Shown in pieces: positions 12,409 to 42,003 of a DNA stretch of 64,000 nucleotides (positions are counted from its first letter, which is position 1; each line of letters starts with the position of its first letter). A program made the translations under genes and the position numbers. The stretch spans positions 25,369 to 89,368 of the forward strand of contig WUUP01000006.1 of assembly GCA_009833045.1 (NCBI GenBank). Reading direction: 5' to 3'. A model generated the notes under the pieces. That model saw nothing but the letters and a program-made list of their open reading frames with translations. It did not search any database and was not told the DNA's origin. Source of the stretch: Saprospirales bacterium GYS_P2D (GTDB lineage: Bacteria > Bacteroidota > Bacteroidia > Chitinophagales > Saprospiraceae).

Positions 12409-13716
12409 ATGAGAAGAGTAGGTGTCATAGGAGCAGGAGAAAGTGGAGTGGGTGCTGCTATGTTGGCCTTGACGGTAGGAGATGTGCCTTTTCTTAGTGA
12501 GTATGGACAGGTCGCCGAGCCTTATCGTCAAAAACTAATTGAAAACAAGATTCTCTTTGAAGAAGGAGGACATTCTTTTGACAGATTGAGCGAGTCTGAC
12601 GTTATCGTCAAAAGTCCTGGAGTGCCAGATCACGTGCCTGTGGTGCGTCATATGCTGGAGCAGGGTATCGAGGTGATATCAGAGCTCGAGTATGCCTATA
12701 GGCATCGCCATCAGGAGGCTAAAATCATCGCTATTACTGGCTCTAATGGGAAAACAACCACAACTAATTTGGTCCACCACCTGCTCGATACAGCAGGATT
12801 ATCTTCGACTAAGGGTGGCAACTTAGGGATCTGTTTTTCCAATTTATTATTAGGTCCAAAGAGTGAAGTGTATGTGCTGGAGGTGAGCAGTTTTCAGCTG
12901 GATGGGATCAAAGATTTTCGTCCTGATATCGCTGTGCTGCTCAATATCACACCTGATCATTTAGATCGCTATGATTATGATTTTCTGCTTTATGCCAAGA
13001 GTAAAATGCGCATAGCAGAAAATCTTAAATCTGGTGATCGATTCATCTACAATGGTGACGATGAGACGATCTCAGGACTCATGGATCGGCATGTGTCAGC
13101 AGCAGGTCTGATAGCTATCAAGCGAGATGAACTGCGTGTCGCTGACTTTCATTTGGATAATCTGGCATTACGTGGCGAGCACAATGCTATGAACGCTTCT
13201 TTTGCTATCGAGGTGGCTCGTCATCTGGGAGTAGCAGACGATAAGATTCAACTCGGGCTGAATGATTTTGCTAATGATGATCATCGGATGCAGGTCGTCG
13301 GAGTGATCAATGGCGTAGAGTGGATCAATGATAGCAAAGCCACAAATGTAGATGCCACATACTATGCGCTCAAGGCTATGACTAAGCCTGTAATCTGGAT
13401 CGTAGGCGGTACCGATAAGGGTAATGACTACTCTCAGATCCTGCCAATCGTGGTCGACAAGGTGCGTCATATTGTAGCTCTTGGTGTAGATAATGGGCCA
13501 ATTCATGAAGCCTTTGGGGGGAGAGATATACCTATCAGCAATGTGGGTAGTATGAAGGCAGCACTTCATGCTGCCGAGAGCTTGAGTCAGGAGGGTGATG
13601 CGGTATTGCTTTCGCCGGCTTGTGCCAGTTTTGACTTATTCAAAAATTATAAGGATCGAGGAGATCAGTTTGTCGCTGGTGTCTGGAGATTACTCAGAGA
13701 TAAAGCGAGTGGATAG
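12409..13716 (+). CDS. murD: UDP-MurNAc-L-alanine--D-glutamate ligase
   Basis: MurD adds D-glutamate to UDP-MurNAc-L-alanine. The protein has 435 residues with an N-terminal UDP-binding Rossmann region (GVIGAGESGVGAA), the ATP motif GSNGKTTTT at about residues 111-119, the motif NITPDHLDRY, and the C-terminal domain with WINDSKATNVDAT and GGTDKGNDY. It lies 3 bp after mraY and 49 bp before ftsW. Confidence 0.94.
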   Translation: MRRVGVIGAGESGVGAAMLALTVGDVPFLSEYGQVAEPYRQKLIENKILFEEGGHSFDRLSESDVIVKSPGVPDHVPVVRHMLEQGIEVISELEYAYRHRHQEAKIIAITGSNGKTTTTNLVHHLLDTAGLSSTKGGNLGICFSNLLLGPKSEVYVLEVSSFQLDGIKDFRPDIAVLLNITPDHLDRYDYDFLLYAKSKMRIAENLKSGDRFIYNGDDETISGLMDRHVSAAGLIAIKRDELRVADFHLDNLALRGEHNAMNASFAIEVARHLGVADDKIQLGLNDFANDDHRMQVVGVINGVEWINDSKATNVDATYYALKAMTKPVIWIVGGTDKGNDYSQILPIVVDKVRHIVALGVDNGPIHEAFGGRDIPISNVGSMKAALHAAESLSQEGDAVLLSPACASFDLFKNYKDRGDQFVAGVWRLLRDKASG

Positions 13717-13765: not shown

Positions 13766-14947
13766 ATGAATGCAGTACATAATATCTATGATCATCTGAA
13801 AGGTGATAAAGCGATATGGTTAATAGTCGGACTATTAGGCATTTTTTCTATTCTGGCAGTATACAGTGCTGCAGGTAGTATGGCCTTCAAAGAGCGTGAT
13901 GGTAATACCGAGTTTTATCTCGTGCAGCAGATTGTCTTCATTACATTGGGTTTCGGGGTGATGTATTTGTGCTATAATTTTCACTATATGCAATACTCAC
14001 GGTTGGCGCCGATCTTACTTTTTCTGACCATACCACTATTAGTTTATACGATAGCTTTTGGTACTGAGATCAATGAGGCTCGTCGCTGGATCAGTATCCC
14101 GTGGATTGATAAGACGATACAGACCTCTGACGTGGCTAAGCTCACGCTTATCATCTTTATTGCCAGATCTTTGTCTATCAGGCAAGAATATATTAAGGAT
14201 TTTAAGAATGCGTTTTTGCCCATACTTATTCCTGTGACCATTGTTTGTATGCTGATTGTACCTGCGGATTTGTCTACAGCAGCATTGTTATTTGGTACTT
14301 GTCTCTTGATGATGTTTATCGGTCGGGTGAGTTTTAAGTATATCTTTTTACTCTTATTATTGGGAGTAGTTGGCATGGCCATTGTTTTTTTGGTGGGGCA
14401 GGTCTTTCCAGAGGTAGTACGTGTAGATACATGGATCTCGAGGATTAATGCCTTCCTCTATACTGATGGGGGCTATCAGATCGAGCAGTCTAAGATCGCT
14501 ATAGCGAATGGTGGTTGGATTGGCTCTGGACCTGGTAATAGCTTTCAAAAGAATTATCTCCCGTATCCATATGCGGACTTCATATATTCGATCATCTGCG
14601 AGGAGTATGGTATAGTGGGTGGACTATTTGTGTTGGGGCTTTACCTCATGCTATTAGTCAGATGTATCGGTATCGTGACGAGATGTCCTAAGGCATTCGG
14701 AGCGATATTAGCGATGGGACTTTGTCTCAATTTGGTGATACAGGCTTTCGCCAACATCATGGTATCTGTACACCTCTTGCCTGTGACTGGATTAACCCTG
14801 CCCTTAGTATCTATGGGAGGGACCTCCATACTATTCACCTGTATGTCACTCGGTATCATCCTCAGTGTGAGTAAATATGTCGAAGAGGCACAGGAGAAAC
14901 ACTTAGACCTCATACAAATCGAAGATAGAGATGCGGATAGTCTTTAG
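13766..14947 (+). CDS. ftsW: FtsW/RodA/SpoVE-family glycan polymerase
   Basis: This 393-residue SEDS protein would polymerise lipid II into septal glycan strands, working with the FtsI encoded upstream. It is strongly hydrophobic with about ten predicted membrane segments. It carries SEDS features such as EARRWISIP, a large loop with NGGWIGSGPGNSFQK, and a C-terminal block around PLVSMGGTSILFT. The start at MNAVHNIYDHLKG was chosen because the longer reading frame from 13595 runs inside murD and looks unlike a SEDS N-terminus. Its last 17 bp overlap murG. Confidence 0.93.
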   Translation: MNAVHNIYDHLKGDKAIWLIVGLLGIFSILAVYSAAGSMAFKERDGNTEFYLVQQIVFITLGFGVMYLCYNFHYMQYSRLAPILLFLTIPLLVYTIAFGTEINEARRWISIPWIDKTIQTSDVAKLTLIIFIARSLSIRQEYIKDFKNAFLPILIPVTIVCMLIVPADLSTAALLFGTCLLMMFIGRVSFKYIFLLLLLGVVGMAIVFLVGQVFPEVVRVDTWISRINAFLYTDGGYQIEQSKIAIANGGWIGSGPGNSFQKNYLPYPYADFIYSIICEEYGIVGGLFVLGLYLMLLVRCIGIVTRCPKAFGAILAMGLCLNLVIQAFANIMVSVHLLPVTGLTLPLVSMGGTSILFTCMSLGIILSVSKYVEEAQEKHLDLIQIEDRDADSL

Positions 14948-16019: not shown

Positions 16020-17398
16020 CACCGAGTATCGACATATCAGCTATGAAGCATATTTATTTCATTGGGATAGGTGGGATAGGTATGAGTGCGCTGGCACGTT
16101 ACTTCCTGCATGAGGGCGTACGGGTCAGCGGATATGATCGGGATGATAACACCCTCACTCGTCAGCTCATGGAGGAAGGTATGGATGTCCACTTTGAGGA
16201 TCGAGGTGATGACCTACCAGAGGATTTAGATCTGGTAGTATACACGCCTGCGATACCTGATCACCATGGTGAGCTGTCTTATCTCCGCTCCACAGTTATC
16301 CCCGTGCTCAAGCGCTCTGAGGCACTCAAGGAACTGTTTTGGCAGAAAAGGGTCATTGGAGTAGCTGGTACACATGGCAAAACGAGTACCTCAGCCATCT
16401 TGGCCCATGTGCTGCATAGTCAGGGATTTGCGATGACTGCATTCATCGGTGGTATACTGAAGAATTATGACTCCAACTTCATCTATGGTGATAGCGACTG
16501 GGTAGTCGTGGAGGCTGATGAATATGATCGATCATTTTTGCGACTATATCCTGAGATCGCTGTAGTGCAGGCTATGGATGCTGATCATCTCGATATCTAT
16601 GGAGAGAAGTCTGCTATGATTGATTCATTCAGAGCCTATACAGATCAGATCCGAGAGGGTGGAGTAGCGCTCATACGTCAGGGCATTGGGGAGTTTTGGT
16701 CTCAGTCAGAGTGGCAAAAGTCTCTATCGTCCAAAGGTATTGATGTAAAAGGCTTTGGTCAAGAAGCAGAAGCGGCGGTGCGATGGACAGACTATCATGT
16801 AGAGGACGGCTGGACCGTATTCACGATACATCATGCTGGAGAGCTACAGGAGTGTCGTATGCTCATGGCTGGCGCTCACAATATCAATAACGCTACCGCT
16901 GCAGCTGGAGTGGCATTGCATCTGGGACTATCTCTGGAGCAGGTCGCTGCTGGGTTAGAGTCCTTTAGAGGGATAGAAAGGCGATTTGAGGTGCTGAGGC
17001 ATGATACTATCACTATCGTGGATGACTATGCTCATCATCCCGTAGAGATAGATGCGGCGATATCTGCAGCTCGTATGCAATATCCGAATAGACATCTGAC
17101 TGTGGTATTTCAGCCACACTTATTTACTCGTACTCGTGATTTTCAGGAGGGATTTGCGGAGGCGCTGGATCAGGCAGACGATGTGGTCTTGCTACCGATC
17201 TATTCTGCAAGAGAGGAACCAATAGATGGAGTGACGACCGAGATCATACTGGATCGGATGCAGTCAGATAGTAAGCGACTGCTGTCAAAAGAGAAGATGA
17301 TTGACTATCTGGATCGAGAAAAAATTGATGTTTTGCTCACTTTAGGTGCCGGTGATATCAACAAACTTCTGTCTAAAATTTTGCTAAAGCTGGAATAA
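16016..17398 (+). CDS. murC: UDP-MurNAc--L-alanine ligase
   Basis: MurC performs the first peptide addition in the Mur ligase series. The 460-residue protein has the N-terminal motif FIGIGGIGMSALARYF, the ATP-binding GTHGKTST at about residues 118-125, the motif VVEADEYDRSFL, the EXXXR-like GIERRFEVL and DDYAHHPVEI. Translation may start at 16016 (ATGA overlap with murG) or at the ATG of MKHIYF nine residues later; the overlap favours the former. ftsQ follows with no gap. Confidence 0.94.
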   Translation: MTPSIDISAMKHIYFIGIGGIGMSALARYFLHEGVRVSGYDRDDNTLTRQLMEEGMDVHFEDRGDDLPEDLDLVVYTPAIPDHHGELSYLRSTVIPVLKRSEALKELFWQKRVIGVAGTHGKTSTSAILAHVLHSQGFAMTAFIGGILKNYDSNFIYGDSDWVVVEADEYDRSFLRLYPEIAVVQAMDADHLDIYGEKSAMIDSFRAYTDQIREGGVALIRQGIGEFWSQSEWQKSLSSKGIDVKGFGQEAEAAVRWTDYHVEDGWTVFTIHHAGELQECRMLMAGAHNINNATAAAGVALHLGLSLEQVAAGLESFRGIERRFEVLRHDTITIVDDYAHHPVEIDAAISAARMQYPNRHLTVVFQPHLFTRTRDFQEGFAEALDQADDVVLLPIYSAREEPIDGVTTEIILDRMQSDSKRLLSKEKMIDYLDREKIDVLLTLGAGDINKLLSKILLKLE

Positions 17399-23857: not shown

Positions 23858-24886
23858 ATGCCCACTAATAAGCACGCTATAATTCGCTACCGTACCATCG
23901 ATCAATGTCTCCGGACACCTGATCTGATCTGGAACTGGAAGAAACTGGCTACAGAATGTGCTCGAGCGATACATGAGTCGACAGGGCATGAAGTAGAGCT
24001 CTCAGAGCGTACGATCAAAGGAGATCTCGCAGCTATGCGTCACAATGAAGTGCTCAATTATAAGGCATCTATCATTTATGATCGTGGATCAAAGTCCTAT
24101 CGATATTCTGATAGTTCTTACAGGCTAAAAGAAGCGGCCATAGATGAAAGGGAAACGGTATCACTTCATGATGCACTGAAGCTGCTCAAGCAGTTTTCGG
24201 GATTCTCCGAGATACTCGGTATCGAGTCGATCCTGACGAAGCTCCATCATACGATAGATCAAGAAGATAGCGAGAGAGGGAGTGTCATCCACTTTGATCA
24301 TCCGCTCGATGCGCCTGGACAAGAGTGGCTCTACGAGGCCTACAGTGCGATCAATGATCAGCGGACGATCCAGCTGACCTATCAGAAGTTTGGCGAGGAG
24401 CCTCAAGGTGTCATCATGAGTCCCTACCTCCTAAAGGAATATCAAAAACGATGGTATCTCCTCGGCTATGAGCATAAGAAAAATGAGCTCAGGACTTACG
24501 CTCTCGATCGGATCAAGGACATTAAAGAAAGTCTTAAGGACTATCACGCCATGGAGGATTTTGATCCAGATCAGTATTTTAATGATGTGATCGGTATCAT
24601 CGTCGATACCGAAAAGGGGACTGAGCCAATAGAGATCAAAGTATATGGAAAACAGATAGACTACTTCATGACTCGTCCTCTACATCGCTCTCAGCGACTC
24701 AAAAGTGAAGGAGAAGACAATGGGCGTAGATGTGCCCTCTTTCATTATGAACTCATGATAAACTATGAGCTGGTCAGTGAGCTGCTGTCCTATCGAGAAA
24801 ATATCGAGGTCATAAGTCCTCTTTCTCTACGAGAAGAAATCAAACGGTCACTGCAGCAGAGTATAAAGAGGTATGAGGGGGAGTAA
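23858..24886 (+). CDS. WYL-domain transcriptional regulator
   Basis: This 342-residue protein has an N-terminal DNA-binding region (about residues 1-75, including LSERTIKGDLAAMRH). A WYL domain follows from about residue 145, with the signature region YLLKEYQKRWYLLGYE and the later ALDRIKDI. A WCX-type C-terminal domain follows. WYL regulators sense ligands, often nucleic acids or nucleotides, and frequently control stress or defence genes. No partner operon is attached: the downstream region is a repeat, and the next gene (a vWA protein) starts almost 600 bp away. Its target is unknown. Confidence 0.88.
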   Translation: MPTNKHAIIRYRTIDQCLRTPDLIWNWKKLATECARAIHESTGHEVELSERTIKGDLAAMRHNEVLNYKASIIYDRGSKSYRYSDSSYRLKEAAIDERETVSLHDALKLLKQFSGFSEILGIESILTKLHHTIDQEDSERGSVIHFDHPLDAPGQEWLYEAYSAINDQRTIQLTYQKFGEEPQGVIMSPYLLKEYQKRWYLLGYEHKKNELRTYALDRIKDIKESLKDYHAMEDFDPDQYFNDVIGIIVDTEKGTEPIEIKVYGKQIDYFMTRPLHRSQRLKSEGEDNGRRCALFHYELMINYELVSELLSYRENIEVISPLSLREEIKRSLQQSIKRYEGE

Positions 24887-25140
24887 TGAGTAGTGAGAAG
24901 TGAGTAGCGAGTATTGAGGCTTTAGGTCAGATGTCGATCCGAGTATCAAGTGAAAAGTGAGAAAGTCGAAAGTTCTTTTATTCTGTCATCGGATTCATCC
25001 TCCTGTCCTTCTATTGCGAAGAGAAGGATGAAACATTGTGTTTTCAATAGAGACGACTACCGTAATCATCTTAGGTAATCATAAGATCAGTCCTCCATGT
25101 TAAGGGAGGTGCCCGTAGGGCGGAGGGTTCCGAAAGCAGA
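24887..25140 (-). repeat. inverted single copy of the hairpin-rich repeat family
   Basis: Read on the minus strand, this stretch contains the same ordered blocks as the tandem array at 33430-34369. These are the GCCC..GGGC hairpin with CACCTCCCTT and ATGGAGGACTGAT, the phrase AAGATGATTACGG, the junction ATTGAAAAC, the TCCTTCT..GAAGGA hairpin with ACAGGAGGATGA, and a purine-rich GAGTA/GTGAG stretch. It begins directly after the WYL stop codon. It carries no gene. Confidence 0.7.
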
Positions 25141-33429: not shown

Positions 33430-34369
33430 TTGAAACGTAAATTACCATCCTTAATTTTTAAGAGAAGGACAGGAGGGAGAGTTCGAAATCAGATAGACGG
33501 CATTATGCTCAAAAGAGAAACTTACTCAATACTCACTTCTCGCTACACACTACTCGGATTGAACCCTCCGCCCTTCGGGCACCTCCCTCAAAATGGAGGA
33601 CTGATTTTGTGCTTACCTAAGATGATTACGGCAATCGTCTCAGTTGAAAACATGCAGTACCATCCTTCTTTTTCAAGAGAAGGACAGGAGGATGAGTTCG
33701 ATGACCGAAAGAACGCAATTCCCGCAAAACAGAATTTTGCGGAACACTACGACGTAGATGATTCTACGCCGAACGAAGGGAAAGAAACCTCGCTACTCAC
33801 GACTCACCACTCAATACTCGCATCGAACCCTCCGCCCTTCGGGCATCTCCCTTAAAATGGAGGACTGATTTTATGCAGGCCTAAGATGATTACGGCAATC
33901 GTCTCAGTTGAAAACGTGTAGTACCATCCTTCTTTTTCAAGAGAAGGACAGGAGGAAGAGTTCGCTGACCGAAAGAACGCAATTCCCGCAAAACAGAATT
34001 TTGCGGAACACTACGACGTAGATTATTCTACGCCGAACGAAGGTGACTCGCTACTCACTTCTCGCTACAAACTACTCGGATCGAGCCCTCCGCCCTTCGG
34101 GTACCTCCCTTAAAATGAAGTATTAAGTTGGCAAGTTTTAAAGTTTTAAAGTGACTGATAGGCTCTCACTTGAAAACGTGTAGTACCATCCTTCTTTTTT
34201 AAAGAGAAGGACAGGAGGAAGAGTTCGCTGACCGAAATAATGCAATACACGCAAAACAGAATTTTGTGAATACTGCGACCGTAGATGATTCTACGCCGAA
34301 CCAAAGGGAAAGACATCCTCGCTACTCATGACTCGCCACTCACTACTCAAATCCGTACACCTCTGTCCG
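33430..34369 (+). repeat. four tandem copies of a 200-265 bp hairpin-rich repeat
   Basis: Units start at 33430, 33644, 33909 and 34170, each with TTGAAA. They share ordered blocks: CCATCCTT..AGAGAAGGACAGGAGG, CGCAAAA-cagaa-TTTTGCG, CGTAGA-tgat-TCTACG, a run of ACTCA/CTCGC phrases, CCCTCCGCCCTTCGGG with a small stem, and AAGATGATTACGGCAATCG. The blocks are short inverted repeats that can fold one after another. The first unit lacks the two central hairpins and the last lacks the 3' third. The flank before the first unit (33385-33429) resembles the end of the third (34122-34169). A single inverted copy lies at 24887-25140. No gene is supported in 33309-34430. Confidence 0.85.
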
Positions 34370-41818: not shown

Positions 41819-42003
41819 AAGGTTGAAAGTTAGAAAGTATTAAGTTAAAAATTCCTTTTTCAATCGACAGCCTCTTTATCGAAGGGGGACAAAAAAGGAT
41901 GTCTTCCCTGGCAGGGGAGCGGAGGGTTGAATTTGATATATTTATCCATTTTTAAGCTTTGAGAAATAAAAAAGCAGTGTCTTGATGAAATGACACAACA
42001 TAT
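41819..42003. other. gap between regulator and kinase genes with degenerate repeat
   Basis: The first 30 bp are degenerate GAAAGTTAGAA-type repeats like those flanking the palindromic array. The segment 41880-41935 (CTTCCCTGGCAGGGGAG and GCGGAGGGTTGAA) may be a decayed piece of the same repeat family in inverted orientation. No terminator or gene is seen. Confidence 0.4.

Follow-up and report, generated by a model that had tools for sequence, protein, structure and literature searches.

A tandem array of a palindromic, probably mobile intergenic element in Saprospirales bacterium GYS_P2D

The repeat array at 33443-34353 of the window (the whole 64,000-nt stretch of contig WUUP01000006.1 that was analysed) probably arose by duplication, head to tail, of an interspersed palindromic element that is non-autonomous, was amplified in this lineage and whose mobility we infer. 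Among the three options raised by an earlier sequence-only reading (a mobilised palindromic element, an integron-like attachment series or a source of small RNAs), the first fits best. The element occurs in many intergenic copies as a doublet bounded by hairpins; it is frequent in this species and lacking in most of the relatives sampled. To this extent the proposal stands; movement itself was not seen.

The array consists of four imperfect units, as proposed from the letters alone. This organization is borne out by Tandem Repeats Finder (score 1089, period 264, over 33530-34348), by a repeat search of the window, in which the four copies are spaced by 215, 264 and 263 nt, and by the constant order and orientation of modules A-B-C-D-E, mapped by splitting one unit. 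Units 2 and 3 share 92% identity across 255 nt. Unit 1 is without module B, and the third D is broken, having GAAGTA instead of GGAGGA. Linkers B and C are variable between units, and this variability explains the apparent modular loss of internal hairpins. The gap that holds the array lies between divergent genes. The inverted fifth copy was also confirmed, 8.3 kb distant, with its C linker at ~24881. It lies downstream of the WYL gene (23858-24886; PF13280, E 5.7e-17), which directly precedes it. Coordinates of all features are listed in Table 1.

Table 1. Positions of array modules and related copies in the window
Feature	Coordinates	Strand	Remarks
A half-element 1, diverged (TACCATCCTTAATTTTTAAGAGAAGGACAGGAGGGAGAGTTC)	33443-33484	+	intact D absent upstream
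C linker 1, imperfect ACTC-rich heptads	33524-33560	+	
Complete D-75-A doublet 1	33561-33699	+	177.6 bits, the genome's best covariance-model match
D of doublet 1	33561-33600	+	
Spacer of doublet 1		+	contains GATGATTACGGCAATCGTC palindrome
A of doublet 1	33658-33699	+	
B linker 1, hairpins CCGCAAAA..TTTTGCGG and CGTAGATGATTCTACG	33713-33775	+	twin copy: DNA fold z -4.26
C linker 2, heptads	33788-33824	+	
Complete D-75-A doublet 2	33825-33963	+	covariance model 169.8 bits
B linker 2	33977-34038	+	
C linker 3, heptads	34046-34082	+	
Degraded doublet 3	34083-34226	+	covariance model 107.4 bits
D of doublet 3	34083-34122		broken after TTAAAATG
Linker in doublet 3			AAGTT-rich, replaces spacer
A of doublet 3	34184-34226		intact
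B linker 3	34240-34301	+	
C linker 4, heptads	34317-34353	+	array ends here
Fifth copy, complete D-76-A doublet	24985-25133	-	covariance model 154.9 bits
Possible short D-like relative without inner stem (AACCCTCCGCTCCCCTGCCAGGGAAGACATCC on minus strand)	41865-41935	-	by eye, unscored

The window opens with a perfect array of ACTGCTA (17.4 copies, positions 1-122), the C linkers are likewise composed of imperfect heptads (ACTCGAT, ACTCACT), and a CTCACCA/CTCACTA array was observed in another genus of the family (L053, about 1480-1600).

The core unit is a doublet of ~139 bp, comprised of a D half-element, a near-constant 75-nt spacer and an A half-element inverted relative to D. The D half-element is a GAACCCTCCG-stem-ACCTCCCT..GGAGGA hairpin, while A reads CATCCTTCT..AGAAGGACAGGAGGATGAGTTC. 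The first impression that terminal inverted repeats are missing has to be corrected: D begins with GAACCCTCC and A ends with GGAGGATGAGTTC, which are imperfect terminal inverted repeats (GAAC-CCTCC against GGAGG-ATGA-GTTC), and CCTCC at the left end of the doublet pairs with GGAGG at its right end. According to a scan of all A modules, most doublets have 75 or 76 nt between D and A; the minority comprises a shorter class of 54-56 nt and two doublets at 70 nt. Applied to 23 copies, RNAalifold returned unprompted a closed two-armed fold with CCTCC and GGAGG paired, in which D forms two hairpins and A one. Copies in this genome are too alike to covary, except at one pair (C14-G22 to T-A). Folded singly as DNA, doublets surpass their shuffled versions by only a modest margin (z -1.0 to -1.8), and for linker B the fold is strong (z -4.26). 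Those A modules that belong to doublets resemble one another more closely than solitary A modules do (79% vs 73%, p about 0.01), a difference inflated by recent tandem duplicates.

Described in general form, D is CCCTCCG - covarying stem - ACCTCCCT - loop - AGGGAGG. This strict form was found at 19 places in the genome, and the D copies of the window itself come close to it, with a single pair broken (TGGAGG for GGGAGG). In some copies D is substituted by another, longer palindrome, F (TTTCATCTTGAGCGGAGTCGAAAGATCTTCAGC ... GCTGAAGATGTCTCC..GTCGACATGAAA), standing upstream of A (L048, about 12840-12930, 14800-14880 and 16340-16420; also L039 and L049). Palindrome F resembles CGTC-type REPs.

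The units are not confined to the window: a BLAST search with one of them revealed 110 pieces in the genome, so that the refuting case named in the earlier reading, units present here alone, does not apply. A covariance model built from 23 doublets gave 65 matches on about nine contigs, ~30 of which exceed 100 bits and are strong and full-length. No element was located within any retained ORF, as judged from 32 element-bearing gaps in the stretches fetched, with ORFs shorter than 200 aa that overlap elements discounted as spurious. Sixteen gaps hold two or more copies, and within every one of them the copies share an orientation, a sign of local duplication in tandem. In the largest array (about 1.9 kb) there is a run of N (L032, 13490-13586), probably a gap left in the assembly by the repeats, and copy numbers should therefore be taken as lower bounds.

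Exact A-core and strict D patterns were found in none of 119 further genomes of the family, one of which is a congener's, and BLAST of a unit against two congeners gave nothing. A covariance search of 299 genomes of the order, under stricter filters, disclosed only two matches beyond this species, both weak. Each can be read as a two-armed doublet of different sequence, for instance ACTCACCCTCTG ... AGGGGATGAGT in L267. The repeat also had no BLAST match among plasmids and phages. At the level of the phylum, the strict D pattern was present in 18 of 395 genomes, with no match for a reversed-pattern control; in one of these genomes (G450) a tandem array of five D copies with a 191-bp period was noticed (L226, 1390-2320).

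The most likely account, drawn by analogy with REPINs (PMC3116915), is that the doublet would be exposed as a folded single strand, either at replication or in RNA, that its hairpins would be recognised by an enzyme acting in trans from another locus, and that the doublet would then land in intergenic DNA. Between nearby copies and linkers, recombination or replication slippage at direct repeats may then generate tandem arrays and delete internal hairpins. A linked transposase was not detected in ten scanned ORFs located between or beside copies, which encode ordinary enzymes, a transporter or unknowns. Target-site duplications were not visible by eye. An empty site was sought through the HlyD gene that neighbours the array in two congeners, where no orthologue of this gene is present (best identity 24%).

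D half-elements were also encountered in very distantly related bacteria. When GTDB genomes were scanned for the D pattern, at least 114 stretches matched, against ~2 chance matches expected in the whole collection by our estimate, which assumes even base composition. Hosts among the matches listed include Flavobacteriales (Flavobacteriia), Balneolaceae, Ruminococcus, Oscillospiraceae, Gastranaerophilales, Marinimicrobia, Parcubacteria and Shapirobacteria. A few single matches, such as one in Synergistaceae (L100) without an inner stem, may be due to chance. The search pattern dictates the constant arms but leaves the inner stem free; across 69 distinct sequences, 88% of inner-stem positions are paired. 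Permuting the right arms lowered this figure to 59%, and none of 2000 permutations exceeded 67%. A conserved structure is thereby well supported, and both common descent and convergence are compatible with it.

In other genomes, a mirrored half-element lies within 250 nt 5' of D in 17 of 156 cases, vs 3.1% of control windows (p 9e-6). The partner in ruminococci is of a different subtype (CCCTCAGTC..AGCTCCC), indicating heterodimers, as with D and A here. Constant ends of mirrored pairs in relatives mostly face inward, while those of the D-A unit face outward; inside tandem arrays, junctions of both kinds are present.

In a Balneola-type genus, D elements occupy orthologous places in several species, and movement there is accordingly not frequent. 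A comparison of G248 and G176 in this genus disclosed a remnant that looks as if it had been left by deletion from hairpin to hairpin, not an empty site, and at the gap of G203 other species carry different genes. In this genus the elements persist and erode by deletion. One locus of this genus (L247, in G203, G187, G310, G248 and G176) is a hypervariable intergenic site, occupied according to species by a D element, by unrelated genes or by a D remnant.

The family to which D belongs has the look of a passenger mobile element, with its mover presumably encoded elsewhere. We tentatively consider the D half-element a member of an unnamed family of mobile double-hairpin DNA elements, present in several phyla, forming inverted heterodimers, and served by some candidate mover other than a RAYT (REP-associated tyrosine transposase); we put this proposal somewhat below an even chance. 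The family is apparently unnamed: searches by exact sequence and by keyword, in literature excluding most subscription journals, gave no name for it, and the keyword search returned only general REP papers besides empty results.

An alternative is that the element is a true REPIN, in which a RAYT mobilises a doublet of REPs. The inverted palindromes with a preferred spacing, their extragenic position and their tandem clusters match the description of REPINs (PMC3116915), and two Y1_Tnp genes exist in this genome. However, these two RAYT-like genes (L051 and L052) are flanked by their own short palindromes (CAATGGGTTTTAACCCATTG; AACCCTGAAAGGGTGACAT), unrelated to the element. In D-bearing genomes from other groups, 29 Y1_Tnp loci were examined and none has a D element within 1.5 kb, so the search for a RAYT partner suggested along with the array ended with none linked. 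Further, three of 14 such genomes, which may be incomplete, are without any Y1_Tnp match. REPs are defined by a GTAG or CGTC tag at the foot of the stem (PMC3733652), and the consensus of the element has neither beside either hairpin stem. As the tag and the linkage to a RAYT are two defining features, we did not classify the element as a REPIN, and we regard this assignment as unlikely.

Rather improbable, too, is a MITE, that is, an internally deleted relative of a DDE insertion sequence with GAACCCTCC-like terminal repeats. Its expectation of terminal inverted repeats agrees with the imperfect GAACCCTCC / GGAGGATGAGTTC ends, and the size of ~139 bp is suitable. Against it, no full-length parent was seen among the ten ORFs scanned between or beside copies, which are of the kinds listed above, and no target duplications were recognised by eye.

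The distribution of gaps bears on the possibility that the hairpins serve the host as transcription terminators, mRNA stabilisers or sites for nucleoid proteins. Element-bearing gaps are convergent in 12 cases, co-directional in 11 and divergent in nine. Enrichment in convergent gaps (12/27 vs 20/137 other gaps, p 0.001) and the strength of the hairpins would suit such a function, and co-directional gaps are depleted of elements (p 0.009). Nevertheless, divergent gaps, the one with the array in the window included, are about as numerous as co-directional ones, and convergent gaps would also be enriched by neutral insertions that avoid promoters and operons. Orientation with regard to co-directional genes is unbiased (six same, five opposite), the element is restricted to the species, and several copies can share a gap. 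The pattern of gap types and the absent orientation bias fit insertion outside operons better than a terminator role, and we find a host function very improbable. As to small RNAs, an Rfam scan of the array region brought up nothing that approaches a gathering score.

An integron-like attachment array, suggested by palindromic sites standing in series, was rejected: 33430-34369 has no RYYYAAC or GTTRRRY core (attC) and no gene cassettes, and no integron integrase (IntI) in the genome exceeds the curated cut-off (TIGR02249, best 104.8 bits vs cut-off 265). Nor does the evidence support a decayed transposase gene, because structure is conserved, copies reside in intergenic gaps, and the order contributes only the two weak matches under stricter filters.

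Few non-coding features of bacterial genomes are as common as short palindromic repeats, whose best-understood class relies on a single transposase family, the RAYTs. If the proposed family is real, a cross-phylum class with covarying structure and no adjoining RAYT in examined copies would imply another mobiliser or another mode of spreading. The D pattern enables a direct census across genomes, together with a search for co-occurring enzymes.

Compared with known systems, the mobile doublet proposed here is closest in layout to REPIN/BIME elements (PMC3116915), which are also inverted doublets of short palindromes with fixed spacing and pairing ends in intergenic DNA, with singlets more diverged than doublets and with tandem clusters that include flanking DNA. 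It differs from them in sequence, in the absence of a GTAG tag and of a RAYT beside any copy examined, and in its half-element, which consists of two hairpins and has a constant CCCTCC arm. Like the D family, CGTC-type REPs (PMC3733652) are palindromes found across several phyla, Bacteroidetes included, for which a dedicated transposase is not known; they are, however, single stems of 8-9 bp tagged with CGTC, while D has two adjacent hairpins and no such tag. With MITEs the element shares short length, non-coding character, multiple copies and inverted ends, although the scan of neighbouring ORFs brought up no parent IS, and inspection by eye no target duplication. BOX elements of Streptococcus pneumoniae are modular intergenic repeats with a variable number of modules. 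The element described here is likewise modular, intergenic and variable in module number, but it is unrelated in sequence, and its variable parts are the linkers between doublets instead of an internal box.
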